Shown here piece by piece: positions 29,479 through 44,023 of a DNA stretch of 64,000 nucleotides. How positions within the stretch are numbered: the stretch's first letter is position 1; each line of letters begins with the position of its first letter. The notes beneath the pieces were generated by a model. It saw only the letters and a program-made list of their open reading frames with translations. It was not told where the DNA came from and made no database searches. The stretch is from NCBI RefSeq assembly GCF_000617925.1, contig NZ_BAMT01000001.1, forward strand, positions 620,001-684,000. The letters are read 5' to 3'. Origin of the DNA: Methylobacillus glycogenes JCM 2850. Lineage in GTDB: Bacteria > Pseudomonadota > Gammaproteobacteria > Burkholderiales > Methylophilaceae. The position numbers and the translations under genes are program-made.

Positions 29479-30762
29479 ATGCAGCAGCCAGAACTAAGTT
29501 CTTCTCGTTTCGTAAGTACCTTAACCAAGAATACTGTGGCCCTGATACTCGCTGGCGGCAAGGGTAGCCGCCTCAAGGACCTCACCAACTGGACGGCCAA
29601 GCCGGCCGTGCCGTTTGGTGGCAAATTCCGCATCATTGATTTTCCGCTGTCCAATTGCATCAACTCTGGCGTACGTCGCATAGGCGTGGTGACGCAATAC
29701 AAGGCGCACACCCTGATTCAGCATATCCAGCGCGGCTGGGGTTTCTTGCGTGGTGAGTTCAACGAATTTGTTGAGCTGCTGCCCGCGCAGCAACGCGTGC
29801 AGGAAGAATGGTACAAAGGCACGGCCGATGCCGTGTTTCAAAACCTAGATATCCTGCGCCAGACCAGCGCTGAGTTTGTGCTGATTTTGGCGGGCGATCA
29901 TATTTACAAAATGGATTACGGCCAGATGCTGGCAGCCCATGTGCGCAACAAGGCCGACATGACCGTGGCTTGCGTGCATGTGCCCGTGAGGGAAGCCAGC
30001 GCTTTTGGCGTAGTCAGCGTGGATGAGCAAGACCGCATCAGAGACTTCAAGGAAAAACCCAAAGACCCAGAAGGCCTGCCCGGCGACCCTGACCATGTGT
30101 TGGCCAGCATGGGCATTTATGTCTTCAACGCCGCGTTTTTGTATGAACAACTGATACGCGATGCCGATGACCCGCACTCCAGCCATGATTTTGGTCATGA
30201 CATCATCCCTTATCTCATCAAAAAATACCGCGTGTTTGCGCATCGCTTTACTGATAGTTGCGTGGGTGCAGCCGATGGCAACTACTACTGGCGCGATGTT
30301 GGGACCGTGGATGCCTATTGGGAAGCCAATATGGAGCTAACCAAAGTGGTGCCCGAGCTTAACCTCTATGACAGGCAATGGCCCATCTGGACTTATCAGG
30401 AGCAATTGCCGCCAGCCAAGTTTGTGTTTGATAACGAAGAGCGGCGCGGACATGCCACAGACTCACTGATTTCTGGTGGATGCATCATCAGCGGCGCCAA
30501 TATACGAAACTCTGTGCTGTTTTCCGATGTCAGGGTTAATAGCTATAGCAGCATTGAGCACTCGGTGCTATTACCCAAGGTAGATGTAGGCCGCCACGTG
30601 ATATTAAAGCGGGTGGTGGTGGATAACGGCGCGCGTATCCCGGATGGTATGGAAATAGGCGTAAATCTGGAGCAGGATAAAAAACGCTTCCATGTCACAG
30701 AGTCAGGCGTGGTGCTGGTAACACCCGATATGCTGGGGCAAAACCTGCACCATATACGCTGA
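29479..30762 (+). CDS. glgC: Glucose-1-phosphate adenylyltransferase
   Basis: GlgC makes ADP-glucose, the donor for glycogen synthase, and is the usual control point. The 427-residue protein has [34 protein letters not shown] (pyrophosphorylase and regulator-binding region), [18 protein letters not shown], the FKEKP substrate motif and a C-terminal left-handed beta-helix. AGGAGG lies directly upstream of the ATG. No glycogen synthase (glgA) is in the window. The GH57 genes follow on the same strand after 139 bases. Confidence 0.96.
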
Positions 30763-30901
30763 ACAAGCGAGTAACACAGGCGGTACCGCACGTTGATTGA
30801 AAAGCTTGGCTGAGAGTATTTTGTTTAAAGTGTTAAATTAAATAATCCAGCCAAGCCATTGTTTAAGCAAGACTGTTTAAGCACTAAACGTAAAGGTGGA
30901 T

Positions 30902-32635
30902 ATGACTGCTCCAAAGCTTTACCTCAACCTGTACTGGCACATGCATCAGCCCGATTACCGCGATACCTTAAGCGGTGAATACGTGCTGCCCTGGACCTAT
31001 CTGCACGCCATCAAGGACTACACCGATATGGCGTATCACCTTGAAAGCAACCCCAAGGCCCGCGCCAGCTTCAACTTTGTACCCGTATTGCTGGATCAGC
31101 TGGAAGATTACAGCCAGCAGTTTGCACAGGGCCACCTGCGCGACCCCTTGCTGGCGCTGCTAGCCAAGGAGGACATGAACGCCCTAAACGAGGAAGAGCG
31201 CTACCTCATCCTCGATAGCTGCTTCAAGGGCCATCACGAAAAAATGCTGGCACCATTTGCCTACTACCAGTGCCTGCACAATATGTACACCAAGCTTGAG
31301 CCGCTGGGCCAGAGCATGTTCAACTACCTTTCCGGCCAATACATGGCCGATCTTATTGTCTGGTATCACCTGGCCTGGACCGGGGAGAGCGTCAGGCGCA
31401 ACAGCAGCGAGATACAAGCCCTGATGGAAAAGGGCAGCCAGTTTACGCTGGAAGACAGGCAGACACTGCTGCGGGTGATTGCCGAGTTAATCAGTGGCTT
31501 AATCCCGCGCTACCGCGCCCTGGAAACCAGCGGCCAGATTGAAATTTCCAGCACCCCACATTACCACCCCATATTGCCGCTGCTACTGGATTTTCGCTCC
31601 ACGCGCGACGCCATGCCTTATGCCCCCTTGCCGCATACCCTGCAATATCCCGATGGCCGCCAACGTGCCCGCGCGCATATAGAAGAAGCGCAAGCCTCGC
31701 ACAAACAACGCTTTGGTAAACTGCCCAAAGGCATGTGGCCCGCCGAAGGTGCGGTATCGTATGAGGCGCTTACATTGCTGGCAGAACACGGCGTGCAATG
31801 GGCCGCCACCGGGGAGGGCGTGCTGGCCAACAGCCTGTATAAATCCTTTGATACCAGCGAGCTACCACCGCGGCAGGAATACCTCTACAAACCCTACCGC
31901 GTCAGCAGTGGCTTGCAAGACATCATCTGCTTCTTCCGCGATGATCACCTCTCCGACAAAATCGGGTTTGAATACTCCACCCAACATGCAGACCAAGCCG
32001 TAGCCGACTTTATTGCCAGCCTGGAGCAAATCCATGCGGGCAATAGCAGTGAAAAATCCAGAGTAGTCAGCGTGATACTCGATGGTGAAAACGCCTGGGA
32101 ATACTACCCCTACAACGGCTATTACTTCCTGAGCCAGCTGTATGCCGCCTTGAGCGAGCATGAGCATATTGTTTTGGCCACCCCCAGCGAAATTGCCAGC
32201 CAATGCCGCAAGCCCAGCTCTAACCTGCCGCTGGGGCATTTGCCAACCATAGCGGCGGGTAGCTGGGTGTATGGCAGCTTTAGCACCTGGATAGGCAGCC
32301 CAGATAAAAACCTGGGCTGGGATTTGCTGTGCGAGGCCAAGCAAGCCTATGACGAAGTATTGCGTGAAGGCCTGCTCAATGATGACGAGCAAGCGGCAGT
32401 GGCGCGCCAACTGGCCATATGTGAAGGCTCAGACTGGTTCTGGTGGTTTGGTGATTACAACTCCGCCATCAGCGTGAGCAGCTTTGACCAGCTTTATAGA
32501 CGCAACCTGAGCAATCTCTACCATTTACTCAACCTGGAACCGCCTGCCAACCTGCAGCAATCCATCAGCAGTGGTGCCAGCACATCATCGGCAGCCAATG
32601 CAGGCACCATGCGTAGAGGGCAAGAAACTCCCTAA
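30902..32635 (+). CDS. Glycoside hydrolase family 57 (alpha-amylase type)
   Basis: The 577-residue protein has the GH57 start LYLNLYWHMHQPDYRD, the nucleophile Glu in KGMWPAEGAVSYEAL and the acid/base Asp in VILDGENAWEYYPYNG. GH57 enzymes act on alpha-glucans as amylases, pullulanases or branching enzymes; which one cannot be told. ATG 30902 is chosen because AAGG lies five bases upstream; an in-frame GTG at 30896 is also possible. In the 30763-30895 gap, GCTTGGCTG and CAGCCAAGC can pair, of unknown role. No signal peptide is seen, so it should act on intracellular glycogen. Confidence 0.88.
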   Translation: MTAPKLYLNLYWHMHQPDYRDTLSGEYVLPWTYLHAIKDYTDMAYHLESNPKARASFNFVPVLLDQLEDYSQQFAQGHLRDPLLALLAKEDMNALNEEERYLILDSCFKGHHEKMLAPFAYYQCLHNMYTKLEPLGQSMFNYLSGQYMADLIVWYHLAWTGESVRRNSSEIQALMEKGSQFTLEDRQTLLRVIAELISGLIPRYRALETSGQIEISSTPHYHPILPLLLDFRSTRDAMPYAPLPHTLQYPDGRQRARAHIEEAQASHKQRFGKLPKGMWPAEGAVSYEALTLLAEHGVQWAATGEGVLANSLYKSFDTSELPPRQEYLYKPYRVSSGLQDIICFFRDDHLSDKIGFEYSTQHADQAVADFIASLEQIHAGNSSEKSRVVSVILDGENAWEYYPYNGYYFLSQLYAALSEHEHIVLATPSEIASQCRKPSSNLPLGHLPTIAAGSWVYGSFSTWIGSPDKNLGWDLLCEAKQAYDEVLREGLLNDDEQAAVARQLAICEGSDWFWWFGDYNSAISVSSFDQLYRRNLSNLYHLLNLEPPANLQQSISSGASTSSAANAGTMRRGQETP

Positions 32636-32658
32636 CCCCCCTGAGATAGGAGCAAGAC

Positions 32659-34679
32659 TTGGCTAAAACCGTTGCGTTACTACTGGGCGTACACGCCCAC
32701 CAACCGTAGGCAACTTCGAGAGCGTGCTGGACGACGCACATCAACGCTGCTACGGGCCTTTTATCCGCGTGTTGCATGAATACCCGGATTTTCACTTTGC
32801 CATACACCTCAGTGGCTGGCTGCTGGAATACATGCTCAAGCACTTTGCTGAAGATATGGCCCTGCTGCGCGAGATGGTAGAGCGCGGCCAGGCCGAATTA
32901 TTTGGCGCAGGCTTTACCGAGCCGGTGCTGGCCTCCATACCCTCGGTCGATAGAGTAGGGCAGATCAACACCCTCTCCAAATACCTCAAGCAAGAGCTGG
33001 GGCAACAGCCCGTGGGTGCCTGGCTCACCGAGCGCGTGTGGGAATCATCCGTAGTGCCAGCGCTGGCAGATGCAGGCATACGCTACGTCACGGTAGATGA
33101 CTACCACTTCATGTGCAGCGGCAAAGAAAGCAGCGTACTCAATGGCTTTTACACCACGGAAGAAGATGGCCGCAAGGTAGACCTCTTCCCCATCTCCGAG
33201 GCCTTGCGTTACCGCCTGCCGTTTTCACCCGCGCATGAAGTTGTGGGCTATCTGGAAAGTCTGGCGCAAGAAGATGGCCAGGCGGCGGCTGTATATTTTG
33301 ATGACATTGAAAAATTTGGTATTTGGCCAGAAACCTACCAATGGGTGTATGAGCGCGGCTGGCTGCGCCAATTCATAGAAGGCGTGCTCAACTCCGACAT
33401 AATCAAACCCATGCGCTATGCCGATTATCATCAGCAGTCACGCACCAAGGGCGTGGTATACCTGCCCACCACCTCATATATTGAAATGAACGAGTGGACC
33501 CTGCCAGCCGCAGCGGCGCATGAATATGCCGATTTGGTGAGCCGTGAGCGCGATGGTCATCGCTATGAACAAACCAAGCCCTATGTGCGCGGCGGCATCT
33601 GGCGTAACTTCTTCATGCGCTACCCAGAGTCAAACTGGATGCACAAACGCATGCTGGAACTCTCCAAGCGCTACCACGCTTTGCCCAAGGCCAAGCAAAC
33701 CGCCGCCATGCTGCACGCCCTGTATGAAGCCCAGGCCAACGATGCCTACTGGCACGGCCTGTTTGGCGGGCTATACCTGCCGCACCTGCGCCGCGCTATT
33801 TACCAGGCCATTATTCGCCTGGAGGCCCTGCTGGATGAAGTTGAAGCCAGGCCGCAGCAGCAAATACTGGATATAGACCTGGACGGCCATGATGAGTTAT
33901 TCCTGCACAATGGCAGCCTGCAAGCCATCATATTGCTGGATGGCTCTGCCGCCATTGCCGAGCTGGATAGCTACCAGCACAAGCATAACTTTGCCGATAG
34001 CCTGACGCGGCAGGCCGAGCATTACCACCGTAAAGTGCATGCTGCGCAAGCCCCTGCGCACAGCGGCGAGGGCATAGGCAACCCGCACGACCACATGACC
34101 TCCAAGCACGAAATATCACCCGAAGACCTGGCCACCGATAGCCGCCGCCGCGCGCTATTCAATGACAGCTGGGTAGATGGCGGTGGCAACCATCACCCAC
34201 TGCACTATGGCCGTGACGATCACGGTGGGCCAGATTGCGAATTTGCCACCATCTTGCCCAGCCAAAGCTCTGCCTTGCTGCGCAAGCGCTACAGCCTGGA
34301 TAAGCAGCGCCTGAGCGTGAGCTACAGCCTGGCCAACGAACAAGTGAGCGATGGTTACCTGCGCGTGGAAATCAACCTGGCCATGCCCAGCTGCGATGGC
34401 CCGGCCGGGCGCTTCCGCCAGGGAGATCACATACCCGGTGGCTTTGGCCAGCCTTTGAATCAGGACAACCTGGATAAAATCATTCTGGAAGACGAAGTAC
34501 TAGGGGGCGCGGTAGAGCTTAAAACCAGCATCCCTTGCCAGTTCAGCAGCGCGCCGCATTTATCCGTTTCTCAATCTGAAGCCGGGTTTGAGAAAATCAT
34601 GCAGGCCGTGACCTTAACCCTGCAATGGCCAGTTTCTGCCTTGAGTCAGGAGGTGGTGGTGACATTAAAATTCAGTTGA
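32659..34679 (+). CDS. GH57 4-alpha-glucanotransferase/alpha-amylase with DUF1926 domain (one-base frameshift)
   Basis: The start is TTG 32659 (RBS GGAG at 32648-32651): AKTVALLLGVHAHQP, then a stop. One extra G near 32706 restores VGNFESVLDDAHQRCYGPF and joins the long frame, giving about 673 residues. The protein follows the Thermococcus 4-alpha-glucanotransferase pattern: LTERVWESS (nucleophile Glu), VDDYHFMCSG, DDIEKFGIWPETYEW-like DDIEKFGIWPETYQW (acid/base Asp), YWHGLFGGLYLPHLRR, and a C-terminal DUF1926 beta domain ending in LSVSQSEAGFEK. It should rearrange maltodextrins, next to the other GH57 gene and a glucokinase. Confidence 0.88.
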
Positions 34680-34749
34680 GTATATTAAGAAAATCAGCTT
34701 GTTAAATAATTAATTTAAAGCAATGAATTAATAATAAAAGGTGATAGGG

Positions 34750-35671
34750 ATGAGCACAATAATAGAACGTCTGGGAGTGGATATCGGTGGCACCAACCTG
34801 CGAGTTGGCGTGGTGCGTGGGCTGGAAGTAGTGCATGAGCTGCGCTTTCCGGCGGATTTTTCTAGCATATGCAAACAACACGCCCCGGCCACCGCCTGGC
34901 AAGAAATATTGCGCATCACCCTAAGCGCCCTACAACAAGTAGTGGCTGAATACCCGCGCGTGGCTGGCGTGGGCATAGGCTTCCCTGGGTTTATCAGCTG
35001 AGAGTGGGCGGGTAGTGCAATCACCCAACCTGCCTGGCCTGCGCGATGTAGACCTGGCAGGCGAGCTATCTGATTTATTAGGCCTGCCAGTAAAGGTTGA
35101 AAATGACGCGCTGGTGGCCGCCTTTGGTGAATACATGCTGCTGGCAGAAAAACCCCGCAGCATGGTTTACCTGGGCCTGGGCACAGGCGTGGGCGGCGGC
35201 CTGATACACGGCGGCCAGCCTTACCCAGGTGATCACGGCATGGCCATGGAAGTAGGGCACATCATTGTTACCCCCCACGGCAGAAAGTGCGGCTGTGGCA
35301 ACCTGGGCTGTCTGGAGCAATACGCCGCTGCCACTGGCGTAATTGCCAGCTATGCCGAGGCCACAGGTGAGCAGTTATTGGCGCATGAGATTGCCGCCAG
35401 AGCCAAAGCAGGGGATAGCCACGCCCAAGCGGCTTATGACCTGGCTGGCAGCACGCTGGGCATAGCCATTGCCCACCTGGCTAAAACCCTAGACCCAGCC
35501 CTGGTGCTGATAGGCGGCGGCATGAGCCAGGCCTGGCCGCTGATGCAGAAGGCGCTTAAGGATCAGCTGCATCAGGATTTGATTCCAGTGTTGAGAGATA
35601 AAACCCAGATTGTGGTTTCTGGGAGTGGCGATCAGGCGGGGATTATTGGGGCGGCTTATTTGACGGCTTAA
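34750..35671 (+). CDS. glk: ROK-family glucokinase (frameshift in this sequence)
   Basis: This ROK kinase probably phosphorylates glucose released from glycogen. The first part has the phosphate motif ERLGVDIGGTNLRVGVVRG and ends GIGFPGFIS-stop. The second, shifted by one, continues ESGRVVQSPNLPGLRDVDL, VENDALVAAFGE, GTGVGGGLIHGG, the ROK zinc motif CGCGNLGCLEQYAA and VLIGGGMSQ. Removing one T near 34999, or adding two C, rebuilds about 306 residues. The gene closes the glgC-GH57-GH57 cluster. Glucose specificity is inferred from context. Confidence 0.85.
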
Positions 35672-35749
35672 ATAAGACTACCTCTCCAATCTAAAATGTA
35701 GAAGAATAGTTTTCAAGAAACTAAAACTTGGGGGGCATTTTTCCAATTA

Positions 35750-37963
35750 TTAATGCGAAGAAATAAGTTTGATTTGACCAGAGAATTTTGTATTAATGAA
35801 GTCAATTACATCCTTACAACTGTTAATTACATTGATCTCTAGATAAGCCTTTTCGTTTCTAATAACCCCATGTGAAGAGTCGTTGATCATAGAGTAAATG
35901 TAAACATTGGCAGAAAAGTGTTGGTCTAAATATTCTCTTAATGATAAATAGGGATTCTCGAATCTGTTTACCGTTTCAAGAATATGCCTAATGGAATTCG
36001 GCGTTGTGTGAGAAGGTTTTTTATTGCCGATACTTGTATCATAAACATCTTTAAGATGTTGTTCATAAGGCATCAAAAGCTCCTTTCCAATCGATTTAAG
36101 TTCATTATTTGAAAGGCAAAAACTATCACTTATAATATTATTCCGAATTAACAAACTCATAAATTCAATATTGTGAGTTAAAAGTAAAAATCTTGACCTT
36201 CCGAAGTTGAAAAGAAGTTCCAGCCGCCTTAAAAGCTGAGAAATTGAATATACATAATGAAAATCCATGCTTGAAATTGGATCGTCAATGATGAAAAATA
36301 ATTTATCATAATCTTCTTCTGAGCCAATTAAAGTATGTGTTTCAGCTAGAAAGAAGCAAAACGAAACTATGCTTTTCTCACCGTCACTTAGTACATCACT
36401 AGCATTATCAAGAAGTGTATTTTTTTCAAATTTCAAACAAAATTTTTCATGATCTAAAGAGTATTTCTTCTCGAAAACTTGACTAAGTAAAGTTTCAAAT
36501 GTTTTCGCTACTAGATCTTTCTTGCTGGATTTATTGGAATTTTCTTTAAGCAATATTTCAGTGTTTAATTTTGTTTTCTCTTCAAGTAAAATATTTGTTT
36601 CAATTAATAAATCAGTAATAGATTTTTTCACTTCCAAATATTTTGAAGTGCATAACCGTTTTTTAACAATTAATTTTTCATTAGCGGAATCATTTTTTAC
36701 AGAATTAATCTTTTGAATTAATTTATTTCTGGTGTTTTCGTATTTTTCCAATTGCGCAGAGAATTCTTTTATTGATGAGAATCCTTGAAGTAAATCTTTT
36801 TCAGGAAAATAAATTTCTATATTTTCAATTTTAGATTTCAACATTGAAATAAATTTATTGATAATTTCAATTACATAATCCGTTCCAACAAAATCTTCAA
36901 GCGTGGTTTCTGAAAATGAAGGAATGAATTCTTTTACTTTGTTGAAATTATTTTTTGAAACGGCATCAGTGCTGCTGGCTGATTTTATTTTGGTAGTTAA
37001 ATTATCAAAGTTCCGAATAAGTATAGAGCAATTGTCAATTACACTAGCTTCATTTCCTTTGAAATAATTTTTATATTCTTGAATTAGTTTATTGCTTTCT
37101 TGGGATAAGGATTGTTCGCAGAATGGGCAGTCATCTTGCAGATGCTTTAAGCCTTCTTGTATAAAAGATTGTTTTGATACGACCTTACCCTTAAAGGCCT
37201 CATCTATCCTACTAACTTCATGGCTCAAAGATAATACTTTGAATGCATTGTCTAAAAAATCTAGGGATAAATTTGTGTTGAATGCCAAAATATCCGGTAT
37301 GTCATCCGGCATGGTGTTAAGTTTCGTATTTACTTTTAAAAGTTCTTTGAAAGATATTTTTTCATCATAATCTAATTTGTTCTGCATCAAGTTTTCTAAT
37401 GAGAAATTTTTGTATTCAGTAATAGATTTTCTTATCCCTAGACCTTCTAAATCAAGCAAGGCATTTGCAAATTTATCGCTAATATTTTTATGATTATTTT
37501 GAATTTTATTTTCGATGTTATTTAAATTTATTTTTTCATTAGTTAAGTCAATTTGGATTTTTCCTAAAATATATCCTTCGATTTCTCCATTTGGCTTGTA
37601 ATTGTATGTCTCTAAATTATCTTTAGTATAATCATTATTAAAAACGTGGAATATGTAGTCGGTTTTATTTGAAACAGTAGGGGCGGCACCTTTTTTAATA
37701 TATATGTCAAGTTTTTTACTTGTTGACCCATCATTAATGCTCAACTCTAATGAACCACTATCCTTTCCGAAAGATAGCAATTTATTTGCTTTAACTGCAT
37801 CTTGACTTCGGATTAATCGAAAGCATTTACTTAGAAATGACTTGCCCGTGCCATTCGGCGCATATATGCCTAATTTTAAGGAGCTGGTCTTTACAGATTG
37901 TTTGAAATTCTGATGCGGGCCAACATTCCCCACAGCAAGATCAATGTCAATTTTTTTGCTCAT
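35750..37963 (-). CDS. ABC/SMC-type ATPase resembling PrrC/RloC anticodon nucleases
   Basis: The 737-residue protein has the Walker A motif GIYAPNGTGKS (residues 32-42), a long helical middle with a CPFC motif at 279-282 resembling a zinc hook, an ABC signature LSDGE (525-529), Walker B IIDD (558-561) and an H-loop THN (596-598). After the ATPase come Arg659-x3-Glu663 and His698 in NDSSHG, close in order and spacing to the Arg-Glu-His triad described for the PrrC anticodon nuclease. The gene is markedly AT-rich compared with its neighbours. It follows the DUF2726 gene by 11 bases, probably as one transcript. A defence role (tRNA cleavage on phage attack) is inferred. Confidence 0.8.
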   Translation of the reverse strand: MSKKIDIDLAVGNVGPHQNFKQSVKTSSLKLGIYAPNGTGKSFLSKCFRLIRSQDAVKANKLLSFGKDSGSLELSINDGSTSKKLDIYIKKGAAPTVSNKTDYIFHVFNNDYTKDNLETYNYKPNGEIEGYILGKIQIDLTNEKINLNNIENKIQNNHKNISDKFANALLDLEGLGIRKSITEYKNFSLENLMQNKLDYDEKISFKELLKVNTKLNTMPDDIPDILAFNTNLSLDFLDNAFKVLSLSHEVSRIDEAFKGKVVSKQSFIQEGLKHLQDDCPFCEQSLSQESNKLIQEYKNYFKGNEASVIDNCSILIRNFDNLTTKIKSASSTDAVSKNNFNKVKEFIPSFSETTLEDFVGTDYVIEIINKFISMLKSKIENIEIYFPEKDLLQGFSSIKEFSAQLEKYENTRNKLIQKINSVKNDSANEKLIVKKRLCTSKYLEVKKSITDLLIETNILLEEKTKLNTEILLKENSNKSSKKDLVAKTFETLLSQVFEKKYSLDHEKFCLKFEKNTLLDNASDVLSDGEKSIVSFCFFLAETHTLIGSEEDYDKLFFIIDDPISSMDFHYVYSISQLLRRLELLFNFGRSRFLLLTHNIEFMSLLIRNNIISDSFCLSNNELKSIGKELLMPYEQHLKDVYDTSIGNKKPSHTTPNSIRHILETVNRFENPYLSLREYLDQHFSANVYIYSMINDSSHGVIRNEKAYLEINVINSCKDVIDFINTKFSGQIKLISSH

Positions 37964-37974
37964 CTGATTACCCC

Positions 37975-38610
37975 CTAAGCAGTTAGTTTAATTGCTTTTG
38001 CTATTTCTTCCGAAAGTGGCATTGATTCTGCATGCCATCTAATTAAATTAACTCCAGCAGCTTTAAGACTTTCTTCTTTTTTCTTATCCAGTTGTTTAAT
38101 TTTTTCATTGTTGTGCGATCTATCGTCCAATTCTATTGCGGCAACGATTGTGAAGTCCCTGAGACATACAAGATAATCAACACTTTGTTGAGCAATTCGA
38201 TTTTGTAGTGCATAGGATTGTCCGGCTCTTTTAAACCAGGATGCATTTTTGATTCTGATAAATCGGCTGATCTGGACTTGGGGAAGAATAATGCACTCTG
38301 GCAGCGCTTTAACTAAGCGATAGTAGAAAACTGCTTCAGTTGCTGTTAGTGGTTTGCGCTGTTCGTAAGGTAGTTTTTCAGCAGGGGTTGAGGGTGCTGC
38401 AAGCGATGGAGGCTTGGCCTTAGGAGGTATGTCAATTACCACATCGGCTGGATTAAGTTGAAAATCAGCATTAAATCCAGTTGAGCGGAATCGTTTGGGT
38501 TTATTCCATTCGCGGAGGAAGAGTATTGCAACCTTGATGGCCGCTATAATCAATAGTATAGGTATTAGTTGCTTTAATACACCGAAAATAATATCTGTTG
38601 GATTAATCAC
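37975..38610 (-). CDS. DUF2726 protein with N-terminal membrane segment
   Basis: The 211-residue product has one N-terminal hydrophobic segment (LKQLIPILLIIAAIKVAILFL), a Pro-rich linker and a C-terminal DUF2726 domain: VDYLVCLRDFTIVAAIELDDRSH, then LDKKKEESLKAAGVNLIRWHAE. The IELDD acid cluster and following lysines resemble a PD-(D/E)XK-like nuclease core; the activity is not proven. The start is GTG 38610 with a strong GGGGAGG five bases upstream. It precedes the ATPase gene, and base composition is AT-rich. Confidence 0.78.
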   Translation of the reverse strand: MINPTDIIFGVLKQLIPILLIIAAIKVAILFLREWNKPKRFRSTGFNADFQLNPADVVIDIPPKAKPPSLAAPSTPAEKLPYEQRKPLTATEAVFYYRLVKALPECIILPQVQISRFIRIKNASWFKRAGQSYALQNRIAQQSVDYLVCLRDFTIVAAIELDDRSHNNEKIKQLDKKKEESLKAAGVNLIRWHAESMPLSEEIAKAIKLTA

Positions 38611-38709
38611 TAAAGCCTCCCCATAAAAATTTAGTGATGTTGATTATTTTTCAAATATTTTATTTCAACTTCTTTTTTTTATTGATATTAGTTGTTTCTG
38701 ATTAACCGA

Positions 38710-38958
38710 CTAATCGACCAATGAATCACTTTCTGGATTTCGCTGCTTCACACTTGTGTTGTCTGTAAGTAAATAAGCCGCAAATTCTGGCCAGTGTTTT
38801 GCCACAATTTCAAGTATTCCTGCCTTTGGCTCATGCCTACCTTGTTCTATGCCAATCAAAGTGCCTTTAGCGATGCCTGTGATGTCGGCGAATTCTTGCC
38901 TGCCCATGTCCAGGCTTTCTCGTATTGTTCTTATTTTTCTTCCAGCAGTGCTTGACAT
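38710..38958 (-). CDS. XRE-family HTH transcriptional regulator
   Basis: The 82-residue protein is a compact Cro/CI-type helix-turn-helix: GRKIRTIRESLDMGRQEFADITGIAKGTLIGIEQGRHEPKAGILEIVAKHWPEFAAYLLT. It is likely the repressor of this small island. It lies 99 bases upstream of the DUF2726 gene on the same strand and so may be cotranscribed with it, and it is divergent from the Cox-like gene. A perfect inverted repeat in the shared promoter region is its likely operator. Confidence 0.8.
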   Translation of the reverse strand: MSSTAGRKIRTIRESLDMGRQEFADITGIAKGTLIGIEQGRHEPKAGILEIVAKHWPEFAAYLLTDNTSVKQRNPESDSLVD

Positions 38959-38994
38959 GTGTGCGTGAATGTCCTTGCAGTGTGTTTTGAGGTG

Positions 38995-39010
38995 TATGTG
39001 AAATCACATA
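38995..39010. promoter_or_regulatory. Operator palindrome between the XRE and Cox-like genes
   Basis: TATGTGA and TCACATA form a perfect 7-bp inverted repeat with a 2-base spacer. It lies 5 bases upstream of a consensus -10 box TATAAT (39015-39020) facing the plus-strand gene, so a bound repressor would block that promoter. Its position between two divergent HTH genes matches a phage-type switch. Confidence 0.7.
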
Positions 39011-39046
39011 TATTTATAATGATATGCAAAGGAGCCTAGCGCGATT

Positions 39047-39340
39047 ATGGACACCCCAATCAAAACTAGTCAATTACCTGCTGTGCCTGTGATGTCTCGT
39101 AGCAAATTTGCTGATCTGGTTGGGGTGTCTATTAACACCGTTACCGGATGGATTAACCGGGGTTATTTGCCTGTGATAAGAATAGGTAAATATCGGCTGG
39201 TGAATCTGGCGCTGCTGCACAAGCTGGCTTATGAAAATGCTTACCCCTCTACGGATGCATTTAAGCCACGTGCAGCAAGTCAACATGAGGGTGCTGAAAG
39301 CCCAGACGCGCCGGAGCAGGGCCATGAAGACTTTGATTGA
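39047..39340 (+). CDS. Cox/Apl-like helix-turn-helix DNA-binding protein
   Basis: The 97-residue protein has a winged/MerR-like HTH: SRSKFADLVGVSINTVTGWINRGYLPVIRIGKYRLVNLALL, resembling P2-type Cox/Apl excisionase-regulators, followed by an acidic disordered tail (GAESPDAPEQGHEDFD). It has AAGGAG upstream and a TATAAT box next to the operator palindrome. No integrase or phage structural gene is in the window, so this looks like the remaining switch of a mobile element. The role as excisionase is inferred. Confidence 0.72.
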   Translation: MDTPIKTSQLPAVPVMSRSKFADLVGVSINTVTGWINRGYLPVIRIGKYRLVNLALLHKLAYENAYPSTDAFKPRAASQHEGAESPDAPEQGHEDFD

Positions 39341-39453
39341 TTAAGCAATCTTCAAATTAGCCTTAAGGGCAGGGCTGGAGAAACTGCAAGGTTGTACCAG
39401 CCCTTAAACAAGCGCCGTGCCGGGCGCTGGCAAGCGCACGCAATCTGCATTAA

Positions 39454-39473
39454 AATAATAACTATTCTCGTTT
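39454..39473. promoter_or_regulatory. Candidate Fur box upstream of the fecI-like gene
   Basis: AATAATAACTATTCTCGTTT matches the common Fur-box form AATGATAATGATTCTCATTT at 16 of 20 positions. It lies 25 bases before the sigma-factor start, where Fur would normally repress iron-uptake signalling genes. The upstream gap also has a hairpin (AGGGCTGG 39371-39378 and CCAGCCCT 39397-39404) that may end the Cox-like transcript. Confidence 0.6.
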
Positions 39474-39498
39474 AATGCCTGTTTAAGCCTGCGTTTTC

Positions 39499-40020
39499 AT
39501 GAAACCCCAGCCAGCCCTCAGCCTTTCTCTGATTGGTCAACTTTATCAAGAGCATCATCGCTGGCTGGTGAAGTGGCTTTATCAGCGCCTGGGCTGCCCG
39601 CATGATGCGGCAGATTTGGCGCAAGATACCTTTACCCGGGTGCTCAGCGCACGTGAGCGGCTTTACCTCACTGAAGCCAAGGCTTTACTCACGCTGATAG
39701 CCAAAGGTTTGCTCATAGATCATTACCGCCGTGCGGTGCTGCAGCAGCAGTTTATGCAGGCGCTGGCCAGCCTGCCGCCTGCAGAAATCCCCTCACTTGA
39801 GGCGCAGGCACTGGCGCTGGAGGCGCTGCTGGCGGTGGATAATATGTTGGCCAGCCTGCCAGATGCAGTGCGGCAGACGTTTTTGCTCTCGCAGTTGCAG
39901 GGCTTGAGTTATCAGCAAATTGCCCAGCAGTTGGGCGTCTCCCTCAGCTCTGTGCAGCAGTATATGACCCGTGCTTATGCTGCCTGTTATGCCGCGGCTT
40001 ACCCGGCTGAACCTCTTTAG
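39499..40020 (+). CDS. FecI-type ECF sigma factor
   Basis: The 173-residue protein has sigma-70 region 2 (LYQEHHRWLVKWLYQRLGCPHDAADLAQDTFTRVL) and region 4 (LPDAVRQTFLLSQLQGLSYQQIAQQLGVSLSSVQQYMTRAY), the FecI pattern. It should direct RNA polymerase to the receptor gene downstream when the FecR-like protein signals. It lies two bases before the anti-sigma gene. A Fur-box candidate precedes it, consistent with iron control. Confidence 0.92.
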   Translation: MKPQPALSLSLIGQLYQEHHRWLVKWLYQRLGCPHDAADLAQDTFTRVLSARERLYLTEAKALLTLIAKGLLIDHYRRAVLQQQFMQALASLPPAEIPSLEAQALALEALLAVDNMLASLPDAVRQTFLLSQLQGLSYQQIAQQLGVSLSSVQQYMTRAYAACYAAAYPAEPL

Positions 40021-40022
40021 CT

Positions 40023-41042
40023 TTGCCTCGCCGTATGCACCCTGATCAACGCGTTGTTGAAGAAGCCATTGCCTGGATGGTGACCTTGCAGTCTGGCCAT
40101 GCCAGCACTGAAGACCACGCCGCCTGCCTGCGCTGGCAGGCGCAGCACCCACAACATAAGCTGGCCTGGGAGCGCTTGCGTGATTTATCGCAGCCCATGC
40201 AGCAGGTGGCACCTGCGCCCGCCATTAAACACCTGGCCATGCAAACGCTGGCAGATAACGCCCGCACCGAGCAAAAGGTGCAGGCTTTGATGCAGCGCCG
40301 TCAGGCGCTCAAGCTGTTGTTGCTGGTGAGTGGCAGTGCAGGGCTGCTGGGCCTGGGTTATAAGCAATTACCCTGGCAGCCCATGCTGGCCCAGTACACC
40401 ACACGGGTGGGGCAAAACAAGCGGGTGATGCTGGCCGATGGCACTGAGCTGCTGCTTAACACCGCCACCGCGCTGGATAGTGATTTTGATGCCAGCACCC
40501 GCCGCCTGCGTTTTTATCATGGTGAGGTTTTGCTGACTACCGGGCATGAATCACCTGCACAACAGGCCAATACCGCCCACAGACCATTTATTGTAGAAAC
40601 CGCGCAGGGCAGCCTGCGGGCGCTGGGCACGCGCTTTTTGGTGCGTCAGCGTGAGCAGGGCATAGGGCTGGCGGTGTTTGAGGGGGCGGTGGAGGTGAAT
40701 AACGGTGCGCAGCGGCAGATTGTGCAGGCAGGGCAGCAGTTAGAATTCAGCCGCGCCAGCATAGGCGCAGTGCAAAGCCTAAACCCAGATGCCAGCGCCT
40801 GGGTAGATGGCCTGCTGATTGCCAGGGCCATGCCACTGGGGCAGTTTTTGCAGGAGTTAAACCGTTATCGTCGTGGCCATATCAGCTGTGACCCGGCGCT
40901 GGCCCAGCTGACTATTTCTGGCGTTTTCCCCTTGCAGCAGCCAGAGCGGGTGCTGCAAGCGGTGCAAGAGACTTTGCCTGTGCGCGTGGTGCAATATTGG
41001 CATTACTGGGTGCGGGTGTTGCCGCCAGCGGCGCAGGCTTGA
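40023..41042 (+). CDS. FecR-type anti-sigma factor/regulator
   Basis: The 339-residue protein begins with the cytoplasmic FecR_N/DUF4880 segment (AIAWMVTLQSGHASTEDHAACLRWQAQHPQHKLAWERL), has one membrane segment (LKLLLLVSGSAGLLGLGY) and a periplasmic FecR domain (VMLADGTELLLNTATALDSDF, VETAQGSLRALGTRFLVRQ). It passes the signal from the receptor's N-terminal domain to the sigma factor. The start may be TTG 40023 or ATG 40035; neither has a strong ribosome binding site. A terminator-like hairpin follows. Confidence 0.9.
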   Translation: MPRRMHPDQRVVEEAIAWMVTLQSGHASTEDHAACLRWQAQHPQHKLAWERLRDLSQPMQQVAPAPAIKHLAMQTLADNARTEQKVQALMQRRQALKLLLLVSGSAGLLGLGYKQLPWQPMLAQYTTRVGQNKRVMLADGTELLLNTATALDSDFDASTRRLRFYHGEVLLTTGHESPAQQANTAHRPFIVETAQGSLRALGTRFLVRQREQGIGLAVFEGAVEVNNGAQRQIVQAGQQLEFSRASIGAVQSLNPDASAWVDGLLIARAMPLGQFLQELNRYRRGHISCDPALAQLTISGVFPLQQPERVLQAVQETLPVRVVQYWHYWVRVLPPAAQA

Positions 41043-41064
41043 GTTGGCTGAGAATCAGGCTTTA

Positions 41065-41092
41065 GCTAGCTGGCATTAGCTAGTTATTTTTT
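41065..41092 (+). terminator. Terminator-like hairpin after the FecR-type gene
   Basis: CTAGCT and AGCTAG (41066-41071 and 41078-41083) pair around a 6-base loop and are followed by a T-rich tract TTATTTTTT. It separates the sigma/anti-sigma pair from the receptor gene, so the receptor may have its own sigma-dependent promoter in 41093-41195. Confidence 0.5.
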
Positions 41093-41195
41093 GCGCGCTT
41101 AGGTGTTTTTTAAAATATGTCTCAAATTTTTCTGCAGTTTTTGTTTTCTGCTTCGGTATATCAGGTGCAAACCCGCTAATTGTTAAGGAAGCACC

Positions 41196-43703
41196 ATGTC
41201 TCACCAGCCGCAGAAGCTTTCTGCATCCGCATTTTCATCATTTACAACCTCATCCCCATTTTCCGCCAGCAGGCTAAAGCACGCCTTGCAGCAGGCATCG
41301 CTAGCTGCTGCCATCAGTGTGCCGCTGTTGCAGCCCGTGTGGGCGGCTGAGACGCTGGCAGATGCCAGCCTGAGCCAACATCATTATCAGGTAAGTGCCG
41401 GGCCATTAGAGGCCGCGCTCACTGAGTTTGCCAAGCAGGCGGGCATTCTGCTTTCTTTTGAGCCAGAACTGGTGGCAGGCAAGCGCAGCGCCGGGCTGAG
41501 CGGCAGCCATAGCGTAAACCAGGGCTTTGAAAAGCTGCTCAAGGGCAGCGGGCTGGATGTGGTGGTCAACAGCAATGGCAATTTTGGCCTGAAAAAGCTG
41601 CCCGAATCAGCGCTGCATGGCGGCAGCCTGCCTGAGGTCATGGTGGCAGCGCAGCGCCAGACCGCCTCGATTGATACGCTGATGCCCAGCTATAGCGGCG
41701 GTCAGGTAGCCACAGGCGGGCGCGTGGGCCTGCTGGGTAACCGTGATTTTATGGATACGCCATTCAACATCAGCGCTTATACCAGCAGCATGATTCAAAA
41801 CCGCCAGGCGGCCACCATTGCCGATGTGATTGATAACGACCCTTCGGTACGTAACGGCAACCCACGTGGCGGACGCTTTGATCAGTTTTCCATCCGTGGT
41901 GTGACGTTTATGAATAGCGATGTGGCGTTCAACGGCTTGTTTGGTATTTTGCCTACCTATGCCGTGGCGGCGGAATCTGCTGAGCGGGTGGAGGTGCTTA
42001 AGGGTGCCAGTGGCATGTTGAATGGCATGGTGCCCAGCGGCGGTGGGGCAGGGGGCATGATTAATATTGTGCCCAAGCGCGCGGGTGATAAAGATATCAC
42101 CCAGTTTACCGTCAGCCATGCCAGTGAATCGCAATTTGGTGGCCATATGGATGCAGGCCGCCGCTTTGGCCCCGATAACGCCTTTGGCATACGCTTTAAC
42201 GGCGTTTACCAAGACCCAGGCGAGCTGGCCTTTGATCATCAATCGCGTGAAAGCGCGCTGGGTGCGCTGGCGCTGGATTTCCGTGGTGAAGCGCTGCGCC
42301 TCTCGCTGGATGTAGGCCACCAAAAGCGCAATATCAATGCACCGCCAGAGCGCGTCACCCTGGCCAACACCGCCGGGGTGCTGGCGCAAGTGCCCGATGC
42401 CAAGCGCATAGATAACAACTACGAGCCATCCTGGACTTACACCAACACGCAAGATAACTACAGCGCCGCGCGCGGTGAATATGACCTCAACAGCCAGTGG
42501 ACAGTGTTTGCCGCCGCAGGCGCACGCCAGGGCGAATATGAGTTTTTACGCGTTAACCCTGTGGTGCTCAGCAACGGCAATTTCAGCAATGTGCGCGGCC
42601 GTTTGTTCAGCCGCTATGAGCGCGTGCGCTCGTTAGAGGTGGGCGTGCGTGCCAACCTTGAAACTGGCCCGGTGAAACATGCGCTCACCCTGACCGGCAA
42701 TCGTTACCGCATGGAATATGGCAACCTTGATCACCGCCTGGGCCTGGTTAATTCCAATATCTACGCGCCCGCGCAGGTGCTCAGCCCCAACCTCAATGGC
42801 CTGGCCGATGACATCAGCAAAACCAATACCAGCGATTTAGGCAGCATTGCCCTGGTGGATAACCTCACCATGCTCGATGGCAAGCTGCAACTGGTGCTGG
42901 GCGCACGCTCGCAACACGTTAACTCGCATAACTTTGAAGATGTCACCCGCTATAACGAAAAGACGCTAACGCCGCTGGCGGCTTTTCTGATTCGCCCCAA
43001 CCGTCAGGTTTCCGTCTTTGGTAGCTATATCGAAAGCCTGCGCCAGGGCGATGTTATCCCCACAGGCACAGGCTGCAATGGCCTGGAATGCGCCAATGCA
43101 GGCGGCCTGCTGGCCCCGGTGAAGTCCAAACAGCTGGAAATTGGCACCAAGCTGGATTTTGGCAGCTTTGCCACCAGCATCAGCCTGTTCCAGCTTGAGC
43201 AACCCACGGCCTATGCCGTAGGCCAGGTGTTTGGCATCAACGGCAAGCAACGTAACCGTGGCCTTGAGCTGAATGTGTTTGGCGAGCCATGGACGCATCA
43301 CCGCGTGCTGGGTGGCTTGATGTTGCTGGATACCGAAATGGTGAAAAGTGCAGGCGGCATTAACGATGGCAACCGCATCTTTGGCACCTCACGTGCCAAC
43401 TTCAACCTTAACTGGGAGTGGGATACGCCCATGGAAGGCCTAACGCTGACCGCACGCAGCATCTACAGCAGCTCGCAGTATTACGATGCCGCCAATACGC
43501 GCAAGATACCTGCGTGGACGCGCTTTGACATAGGCGCGCGCTATGCTACTACCGCGCATGGTCAGCCGCTGACCTTGCGGGCCAGTGTGGAGAATTTGTT
43601 TGATCGGCAGTATTGGTCTTCTACCGCTGCGGCGTCAGGTTCTATGGGGTTGAGTATAGGCACGCCTAGGATGTTGCTGATGTCGGCGACTGTGGATTTT
43701 TGA
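41196..43703 (+). CDS. TonB-dependent siderophore receptor with STN signalling domain
   Basis: The 835-residue outer-membrane receptor has a signal region, then an STN domain (YQVSAGPLEAALTEFAKQAGILLSFEPELVAG...SGLDVVV), a plug domain (NRQAATIADVIDNDPSVRNGN, FSIRGVTFMNSDV, VEVLKGASGMLNGMVPSGGGAGGMINIVPKRA) and a 22-strand barrel ending in aromatic residue F after MSATVDF. The STN domain is what contacts FecR, so the three genes form a cell-surface signalling set for a ferric siderophore. The ligand is unknown. AAGGAAG precedes the ATG. Confidence 0.93.
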   Translation: MSHQPQKLSASAFSSFTTSSPFSASRLKHALQQASLAAAISVPLLQPVWAAETLADASLSQHHYQVSAGPLEAALTEFAKQAGILLSFEPELVAGKRSAGLSGSHSVNQGFEKLLKGSGLDVVVNSNGNFGLKKLPESALHGGSLPEVMVAAQRQTASIDTLMPSYSGGQVATGGRVGLLGNRDFMDTPFNISAYTSSMIQNRQAATIADVIDNDPSVRNGNPRGGRFDQFSIRGVTFMNSDVAFNGLFGILPTYAVAAESAERVEVLKGASGMLNGMVPSGGGAGGMINIVPKRAGDKDITQFTVSHASESQFGGHMDAGRRFGPDNAFGIRFNGVYQDPGELAFDHQSRESALGALALDFRGEALRLSLDVGHQKRNINAPPERVTLANTAGVLAQVPDAKRIDNNYEPSWTYTNTQDNYSAARGEYDLNSQWTVFAAAGARQGEYEFLRVNPVVLSNGNFSNVRGRLFSRYERVRSLEVGVRANLETGPVKHALTLTGNRYRMEYGNLDHRLGLVNSNIYAPAQVLSPNLNGLADDISKTNTSDLGSIALVDNLTMLDGKLQLVLGARSQHVNSHNFEDVTRYNEKTLTPLAAFLIRPNRQVSVFGSYIESLRQGDVIPTGTGCNGLECANAGGLLAPVKSKQLEIGTKLDFGSFATSISLFQLEQPTAYAVGQVFGINGKQRNRGLELNVFGEPWTHHRVLGGLMLLDTEMVKSAGGINDGNRIFGTSRANFNLNWEWDTPMEGLTLTARSIYSSSQYYDAANTRKIPAWTRFDIGARYATTAHGQPLTLRASVENLFDRQYWSSTAAASGSMGLSIGTPRMLLMSATVDF

Positions 43704-43732
43704 TGGTTTGAGCTTGAGTTGAGGGTGGAGAG

Positions 43733-43762
43733 AACGGGGGCCTATGGGTTCCCGTTTTTTTT
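43733..43762 (+). terminator. Terminator after the TonB receptor gene
   Basis: AACGGG (43733-43738) and CCCGTT (43751-43756) form a stem with a 12-base loop, followed by a run of T. It is 30 bases after the receptor stop. Confidence 0.6.
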
Positions 43763-43778
43763 GCTATGGAGGTGAGGT

Positions 43779-44023
43779 GGGTGGTCTTGACACATGCTGG
43801 GGTTGGCGAGAGATTTTGTTTCGCCTTGTCGGGCGAGTGCCTTTCTTTTGCTTCGCCGAAAAGAAATGTAAGCAAAGAAAAGGCGACCCGATTCCTGCGT
43901 CCCGGCTACGCCGGGCAACCTGCGTTGCTCACAGTTTCTGGGGTCTTGCTCAAACTCGCTACGCTCAGACAGTCGCAAGCCCTTAATCCAGAAACTGCTG
44001 CGCTACTCGGCGCACTCAACGGG
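43779..44023 (+). repeat. Structured intergenic repeat, copy A
   Basis: This roughly 245-base unit has an inverted homologue at 44170-44437. Shared blocks include TTTTGTTTCGCCTTGTCGGG, GAGTGCCTTTCTTTTGCTTC, AAAGAAAAGGCGACCCG, ACCTGCGTTGCTC and CTCAAACTCGCT. It contains a 10-bp stem CAGTTTCTGG (43932-43941) with CCAGAAACTG (43988-43997). Several short open frames overlap it on both strands, but they look like by-products of the repeat, not genes. Confidence 0.85.

Follow-up and report, generated by a model that had tools for sequence, protein, structure and literature searches.

A candidate RloC-type ATPase gene in a probable filamentous-prophage cargo slot of Methylobacillus glycogenes JCM 2850

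A gene for an ABC ATPase of the PrrC/RloC type is located in a 64-kb stretch of Methylobacillus glycogenes JCM 2850 (contig NZ_BAMT01000001.1, positions 620,001 to 684,000 of the forward strand), here called the window, to which all coordinates refer. Here it is proposed that this ATPase is probably an RloC-type single-gene abortive-infection effector, located in the cargo slot of a decayed filamentous prophage between an ROK kinase gene and fecI. Judged from its sequence, it is a good candidate for anti-phage defence of a known type, and its C-terminal domain is a probable RNA-cutting (tRNase) domain. Single-gene Rad50-like/HEPN ATPases (RloC, with the PADLOC entry PDC-S06 as a candidate) and defence loci in filamentous prophages are already known, and the locus adds to both kinds, since such slots have been described from Vibrio and Pf phages. 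The new finding is the genomic address, a filamentous-phage switch with a cargo slot.

The ATPase and its C-terminal domain

The ATPase gene and the motifs predicted in its product are the following; lettered rows are those rows of the alignment that have a residue at the position.

35750..37963, minus strand: RloC/PrrC-type ABC ATPase of 737 residues, with a zinc-hook-like insert and a C-terminal HEPN-like domain (PADLOC PDC-S06, Pfam AAA_13)
37118..37129, minus strand: zinc-hook-like motif C279-P-F-C282, between helices in the model (C279 in 56/56 and C282 in 55/55 lettered rows)
35750..36079, minus strand: C-terminal HEPN-like domain, a predicted RNase, residues 629-737 (AlphaFold2 (AF2) model, VIA-align rows, hhalign with the PrrC C-domain)
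35987..35989, minus strand: codon of Arg659, predicted catalytic triad, aligned with the PrrC triad arginine (53/53 lettered rows)
35975..35977, minus strand: codon of Glu663, predicted catalytic triad (52/52 lettered rows)
35870..35872, minus strand: codon of His698, predicted catalytic triad (53/53 lettered rows, one of them a stray letter of the fragment L071)

The PADLOC profile PDC-S06, a catalogue candidate for single-gene defence named in a table row of PMC11514479, matches the ATPase along its full length (residues 1-735, E 3.2e-259). Pfam AAA_13 spans residues 33-717 (E 1e-28), the PADLOC PrrC profile matches residues 501-706 (E 7e-13), and the match of Rad50_zn_hook is weak (E 0.12, under the Pfam cut-off). 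Conservation was counted in an alignment of 62 rows, which includes the window, fragments and near-duplicates; six loci were excluded because they contain the window itself or remote matches. In all lettered rows G38, K41, S526-G528-E529-K530, D561 and H597 are unchanged, corresponding to Walker A, the signature, Walker B and the switch histidine, and the signature residue D527 is kept in 53/55. The hook motif is CPFC in this protein and CPxC across the family; it lies inside a long helical region of the model, as an earlier note on this DNA had described it, and it may bind zinc. The triad has the form R-x3-E-x34-H (steps 4 and 35), the spacing given in that note, and the gap from Glu to His is 34 residues here versus 36-39 in 51 relatives. 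Because every lettered row keeps R659, E663, H698, C279 and C282, chance motifs are ruled out, and a plain Rad50/SbcC repair protein was rejected in view of the C-domain with its invariant triad.

Kinship with PrrC was assessed with homologues from 299 genomes of the phylum, in which the PADLOC PrrC profile gave 14 matches at E <= 1e-40; 13 of the 14 loci were tried and 12 proteins were aligned, L093 being missed by the pattern and the partial match L095 being left out. Aligned with these 12 homologues by hhalign, the ATPase family profile gave E 1e-14 and placed R659, E663 and H698 on the PrrC triad (R320/E324/H356; PMC2610378), which bears out the resemblance to the anticodon-nuclease triad suggested earlier. 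The C-domain alone aligned with the PrrC C-domain at E 1e-4 and a probability of 57%, with the triad still in register, and the unrelated DUF2726 profile used as a control reached a probability of 0.2%. By these alignments, the assignment of the ATPase to the PrrC/RloC type is supported.

With PrrC the protein shares the ABC ATPase motifs, including a (P/F)NGTGK P-loop, and the triad in register. It differs in having 737 residues with a hook, whereas the 12 PrrC rows are hookless and 339-410 residues long (trimmed upstream of the P-loop), in the absence of the Rx6H arginine from its family, and in its setting, as no hsd-like neighbour was found in the window. A classic PrrC was rejected in view of the hook insert and the lack of hsd genes. 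No restriction-modification genes were recognised by eye across 30000-44000, and when 27 long open reading frames (ORFs) of 13 PrrC loci, namely the prrC neighbours and one PrrC ORF, were compared with the entire window, the only match at E <= 1e-3 was that of the PrrC ORF to the ATPase itself. The absence of such genes remarked on in the earlier note thus holds near the locus; however, it is no peculiarity, since RloC is rarely linked to restriction-modification genes (PMC2610378).

RloC, as described by Davidov & Kaufmann 2008 (PMC2610378), resembles the window's protein in its published features, namely a Rad50-like ABC ATPase, a CxxC hook, a C-terminal R-x3-E...H triad, a size of 658-897 residues, within which the 737 residues fall, and the usual lack of linked restriction-modification genes. 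Its R, E and H are needed for tRNA cleavage, as determined by mutation (PMC2610378), and its nuclease is activated by DNA breaks (PMC3874168). The ATPase therefore appears to have most of the published sequence features of RloC and nearly fits the RloC definition. Because of this near fit and the full-length match of PDC-S06, it does not belong to an undescribed system, as the earlier note had supposed.

The full AF2 model has a mean pLDDT of 86.5, and its head resembles those of Rad50/SMC proteins (e.g., 3qkt, Z 17.0, root-mean-square deviation (rmsd) 5.1, 284 aligned residues), other top rows having a larger rmsd. Because a fold search with the whole model reports the ATPase head, residues 629-737 were folded separately, giving an all-helical model with a pLDDT of 87.1. 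VIA-align with this C-domain gave 11 rows at Z 5.0-6.5 (rmsd 3.4-4.3, 88-104 aligned residues). Nine of them are HEPN-bearing proteins: three HEPN toxin/HEPN-MNT entries, SO_3166-SO_3165, Csm6', Csx1, two Las1 entries and an A. fulgidus HEPN protein. The remaining two are a nucleotidyltransferase-like protein and a Thermus protein, and the rows after these 11, which include one Las1 entry, have a Z of 4.5 or less. Among the fold-search rows shown there is no PrrC or RloC structure, which is not evidence of absence, and PDB sequence searches with the ATPase gave coiled-coil or chance matches only.

Several points weigh against this assignment. Foldseek found no match for the C-domain at E <= 0.001, and its best Z (6.5) is under the VIA caution line for helical bundles, so that a HEPN fold is likely from the model, not proven; structure comparison thus agreed with the earlier expectation of a HEPN-like nuclease in that the best VIA rows are mostly HEPN, and fell short of it in the modest Z and the Foldseek result. 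Residues 696-702, including His698, are the least confident of the model (pLDDT under 50). The window's Glu-to-His gap is 2 residues short of the published RloC range of 36-52, and RloC enters the comparison through its published description. Moreover, the arginine of the Rx4-6H motif, the primary HEPN site according to a survey of HEPN domains (PMC3710099), is present in 0/52 family rows, whereas Rx6H is found in 12/12 PrrC rows; the active-site prediction is therefore that of the triad by itself.

The missing arginine and the lack of a significant Foldseek match would also suit a C-domain that cleaves other RNA (mRNA, rRNA) or only binds RNA, in which R-x3-E...H would not be an anticodon nuclease site. 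This is rather doubtful given that the triad is invariant and in register with PrrC, and that the matching RloC triad is required for tRNA cleavage according to the mutational work (PMC2610378).

As an RloC-type effector, the ATPase would act as follows. The head and hook would recognise DNA that is abnormal, either that of a phage or DNA with double-strand breaks, as has been reported for RloC, and would hold the HEPN domain silent until phage-related DNA alters ATP turnover; this turnover would release the HEPN domain, which may then cut RNA, most likely tRNA anticodon loops, so that translation would halt and the infecting phage would fail. As an example of the Rad50-like/HEPN class the gene is concrete and testable, and its predicted active site is unusual in that the triad is kept and the HEPN arginine is absent in all family rows examined.

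The repressor/HTH_17 switch and the cargo slot behind it

The switch next to the cargo consists of three elements, the divergent gene pair occupying 38710-39340.

38710..38958, minus strand: repressor-like XRE/HTH_3 gene, part of a switch of Methylophilaceae filamentous phages (Pfam; counterparts in phage relatives)
38995..39010, no strand: operator-like palindrome TATGTGAAATCACATA between the divergent XRE and HTH_17 genes, arms of at least 6 also in 4 aligned relatives
39047..39340, plus strand: HTH_17 gene for an early regulator, excisionase/Cox-like, from the phage family to which XRE belongs (60% identity over 75 residues to a pMsip02 gene)

The record pMsip02 of Methylovorus glucosotrophus is circular, 9.8 kb long and annotated with a major capsid protein, DUF2523, a zonular-occludens (Zot)-domain protein and an integrase; by reading of this annotation it is considered a filamentous-phage replicon. 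It also has a counterpart of the XRE protein (49% identity), absent from the annotation table. At locus L130 (genome G002) the XRE and HTH_17 proteins are 80% and 74% identical to those of the window, and capsid-, DUF2523- and Zot-type matches are present too. Both XRE and HTH_17 were found in 9/10 genome regions first fetched for HTH_17, and the host family has XRE homologues in 12 places, in 8/187 genomes at E <= 1e-12, window included. In L130-L132 the DNA is similar to that of the window without interruption from 38,732 to about 39,213-39,222; elsewhere the similarity is shorter, with none found in the cargo, and the palindrome is kept in five aligned sequences (window, L130, L132, L133 and L134) with matching changes on both arms. 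What the earlier note had called a phage-type switch can thus be specified as the repressor/HTH_17 control region of Methylophilaceae filamentous phages, a member of which is described in PMC13059738.

Only the cargo and the switch would remain of this prophage, which at best is a remnant. The window has no match to the pMsip02 proteins for capsid, Zot-type assembly and integration or to the integrase of L130, and no phage genes were found in the window to the right of the HTH_17 gene; this weighs against a prophage, and the term remnant therefore refers to the switch and the position of the cargo.

The slot behind the repressor was compared in 13 cases, the 12 XRE places (window included) and pMsip02. 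Outside the window the Pfam scan covered 30 cargo ORFs, part of those in the slots, and a PADLOC scan covered 10 of the 30; the cargos were as follows.

Window: AAA_13 and DUF2726
pMsip02: AAA_21 (AbiLi in PADLOC, 1e-19) and a RloB-like protein (2e-5, below the Pfam cut-off)
L130: NERD
L131: DndB and GIY-YIG
L132: Vsr, GHKL-type ATPase and C5 methylase
L133: ParA-like protein and N6/N4 methylase
L134: AAA_15 and a 157-residue protein without a Pfam match
L135: putative AbiC
L136: HNH_2 and C5 methylase
L137: HicA
L150: RelA_SpoT-domain protein and a 347-residue protein
L151: DUF4747 and a 217-residue protein
L128: no cargo recognised

Defence-, toxin- or nuclease-type families are thus present in 11/13 slots, a raw count without a background control, and in L131, L132, L133 and L136 some of the listed genes may lie beyond the prophage. 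A far-side integrase or integrase fragment was found, by tblastn or by eye, in only 6/13 slots (pMsip02, L134, L135, L137, L150 and L151), which, like the uncontrolled count, speaks against the slot as drawn here. Genome G789 has three copies of the slot (L134, L150 and L151) with three different cargos.

In filamentous prophages of Vibrionaceae, a variable accessory locus often lies near the border, one of its flanking genes is frequently a transcriptional regulator, and complete and incomplete defence systems were reported in 8.5% and 33.1% of the filamentous loci, respectively (PMC11630473). In the Pf phages of P. aeruginosa the boundary genes are int and repressor c, and the accessory ORFs lie beyond them (PMC7549136). 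The Methylophilaceae slots resemble the Vibrionaceae ones, which are enriched in defence-type genes, in being variable, near a prophage border and often beside a regulator; unlike the Vibrio and Pf slots, they belong to a different phage family, and here only cargo and switch survive. Among titles and the starts of abstracts, no paper was found that deals with this locus or describes the slot in Methylophilaceae. Methylotrophs have a filamentous-phage cargo slot of the kind found in Vibrio and Pseudomonas, and its contents include AbiL-like, AbiC-like, NERD, RelA/SpoT-domain, HicA and restriction-modification-type genes, and locating the repressor/HTH_17 switch is a simple way to seek further defence genes.

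The placement of the gene behind the repressor would also fit an ATPase whose main role is in the service of the prophage (addiction, keeping out related filamentous phages or induction control), with defence against lytic phages secondary, for which the Pf-borne PfiAT (PMC7549136) and KKP (PMC11341870) are precedents. However, no antitoxin-like partner was recognised, and relatives of the ATPase also occur outside filamentous phages, near restriction-modification and other defence-type genes and, judged by eye, in a tailed-phage context (L075), so that a mainly prophage-serving role seems somewhat unlikely.

In the assembly of the window (G000), contig C27 has an XRE/HTH_17 pair near 220932 (L128) where no phage genes were recognised, and contig C28 has only an HTH_17 remnant near 757353 (L129). 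At positions 730982-731263 of the same contig C28 (L152), next to an ORF that by eye is RadA-like, a Zot-domain assembly protein is encoded in part; this fragment apparently belongs to another filamentous prophage.

The DUF2726 gene next to the ATPase

The second cargo gene is on the same strand as the ATPase gene and 11 bases from it, exactly as described earlier.

37975..38610, minus strand: gene for a DUF2726 protein of 211 residues with a GTG start, a hydrophobic N-terminal segment and a restriction-endonuclease-like domain; second cargo gene, partnership unproven

The DUF2726 domain (PF10881, E 9e-21) is attributed a restriction-endonuclease fold (PMC3710099), and the N-terminus is strongly hydrophobic (Kyte-Doolittle means over 19 residues of 1.78-2.60 in windows starting at residues 4-18), in agreement with the membrane-anchored, nuclease-like protein of the earlier note. 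The GC content is lowest in the ATPase gene (0.298), followed by the genes for DUF2726 (0.398), XRE (0.442) and HTH_17 (0.486), versus 0.53-0.60 in six neighbouring genes; both cargo genes are thus AT-rich relative to their neighbours, as had been observed, and the difference between 0.30 and 0.40 suggests separate origins for the two.

A hidden Markov model of DUF2726, built from the window's protein and homologues of the family, had no match at E <= 1 among the 4976 ORFs of 60 loci with ATPase relatives, several of which are cut by contig ends, two contigs being represented twice and a few loci having only remote or partial relatives. Conversely, a DUF2726 homologue is present in 11/100 genomes of the host family, the window's own included, and tblastn found no such ATPase in nine DUF2726 neighbourhoods, read in 9 of the 10 other genomes. 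Neither gene was found by tblastn in 13 further slot/switch regions, from among L126-L137, L150 and L151, DUF2726 matches being confined to L101-L109, and DUF2726 had no match in phage records. As far as examined, the pair appears to be particular to this locus.

The earlier note had joined the two genes in one abortive-infection system, and the 0/60 and 0/9 co-occurrence leaves that claim unsupported, so that DUF2726 is probably not a conserved partner. A true two-gene system, in which a nuclease-like DUF2726 protein anchored in the membrane would detect or cut DNA on its entry and set off the RNase of the ATPase, would be in keeping with the shared strand, the short gap, the AT-richness and the common slot, and two other slots likewise combine an ATPase with a smaller gene (AAA_21 and the RloB-like protein of pMsip02; AAA_15 and the 157-residue protein of L134). 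Against these points stand the absence of each gene from the loci of the other, their absence from the further slot regions and the difference in GC content, and such a system is considered quite unlikely; most likely, the slot acquired the DUF2726 gene independently, as a second piece of cargo. It would be a speculative step further to regard the two genes as a two-component system newly assembled in the slot, the DUF2726 protein catching or nicking phage DNA as it enters at the envelope and the ATPase replying with tRNA cleavage, the compact cargo-plus-switch unit being mobile with helper filamentous phages; this is very improbable.

The insertion site and relatives of the ATPase elsewhere

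The extent of the insert was read from a genome of the same genus, one of five whose ROK gene was located.

35672..39450, no strand: insert relative to the same-genus genome G005; ends approximate, no flanking repeats found

In the window the insert sits between the ROK kinase gene and fecI, which begins about 160 bases past the HTH_17 gene, and in G005 the ROK gene is followed by fecI after about 120 bp. None of the four insert genes is present at the ROK site of the five same-genus genomes (0/5). In 4/5 of these congeners, with 12 kb fetched, fec genes were not found beside the ROK gene, which counts against the proposed insertion; the evidence for an empty site is therefore that of one genome only. 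The approximately 3.7 kb were either gained at this locus or lost in G005, and the homology of the switch to phages favours a gain. No convincing direct repeats or att site were found flanking the insert. A scan for promoters and terminators gave 20 promoter-like sequences versus 14.2 (sd 4.1) in shuffles and 4 terminator-like ones versus 2.9, and was not used.

That the insert is a small non-autonomous element, a satellite moved by a helper filamentous phage, would agree with its compactness, the retained switch and operator-like palindrome, the single insertion between ROK and fecI and a further XRE/HTH_17 pair of the assembly that lacks phage genes, yet it is hardly probable, as flanking repeats or an att site were not found, no helper was seen in the assembly (92.8% complete), whose sole Zot-domain match is a fragment, and decay explains the insert equally well.

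The ROK kinase gene at 34741-35671 (plus strand) is split in the window between two reading frames, with ORFs of 86 and 218 residues, and its open frame has 307-362 residues in the five same-genus genomes; the split would correspond to a broken gene or a sequencing error.

Relatives of the ATPase were collected by an alignment-based scan with one genome per species, which gave 53 loci, and a scan of genome contigs with the single ATPase protein as query gave no relative. The relatives come from several phyla. The seven nearest (36-44% identity) belong to Sulfurospirillum, Bacteroidota (three Flavobacteriaceae and one unplaced), Clostridiales and a Methylotenera, and in a quick tree of 36 rows the window groups with the Sulfurospirillum, Methylotenera and Bacteroidota rows (97), apart from a large, mostly alphaproteobacterial group. 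At E <= 1e-60 the ATPase is rare, in 2/369 genomes of the class and 1/398 of the phylum, the window's genome being counted in both. In other collections it has one relative in viral contigs, one partial match in phage records and matches in 64 plasmid records, five of which cover at least 80% of the query.

Within 4 kb of the relatives in 49 loci there are 335 ORFs, of which 98 hand-picked as near or long, and one shorter, were scanned with Pfam and PADLOC. The families found include SMC-type ATPases (6), metallophosphatases (3), DUF2130 (3), Fic (2), methylase families (2 each) and others of defence type; the 25 families listed out of 107 do not include DUF2726. In three alphaproteobacterial plasmid-borne loci (L005, L006 and L008) SbcCD-like ATPase/exonuclease pairs, as annotated, adjoin the ATPase relative, which may point to a functional connection among Rad50-like proteins. 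In two Flavobacteriaceae the next gene after the relative encodes a DUF2130 protein (L023:3163-4473 and L031:9137-10423, with a Pfam match for L031), and the copies in these two contexts are 87% identical to each other. The closest relative (L022:7714-11325, 44% identity, Sulfurospirillum) lies between a short ORF similar to the N-terminus of HsdR and a RhuM-like gene, which by eye corresponds to a PrrC-like restriction-modification context.

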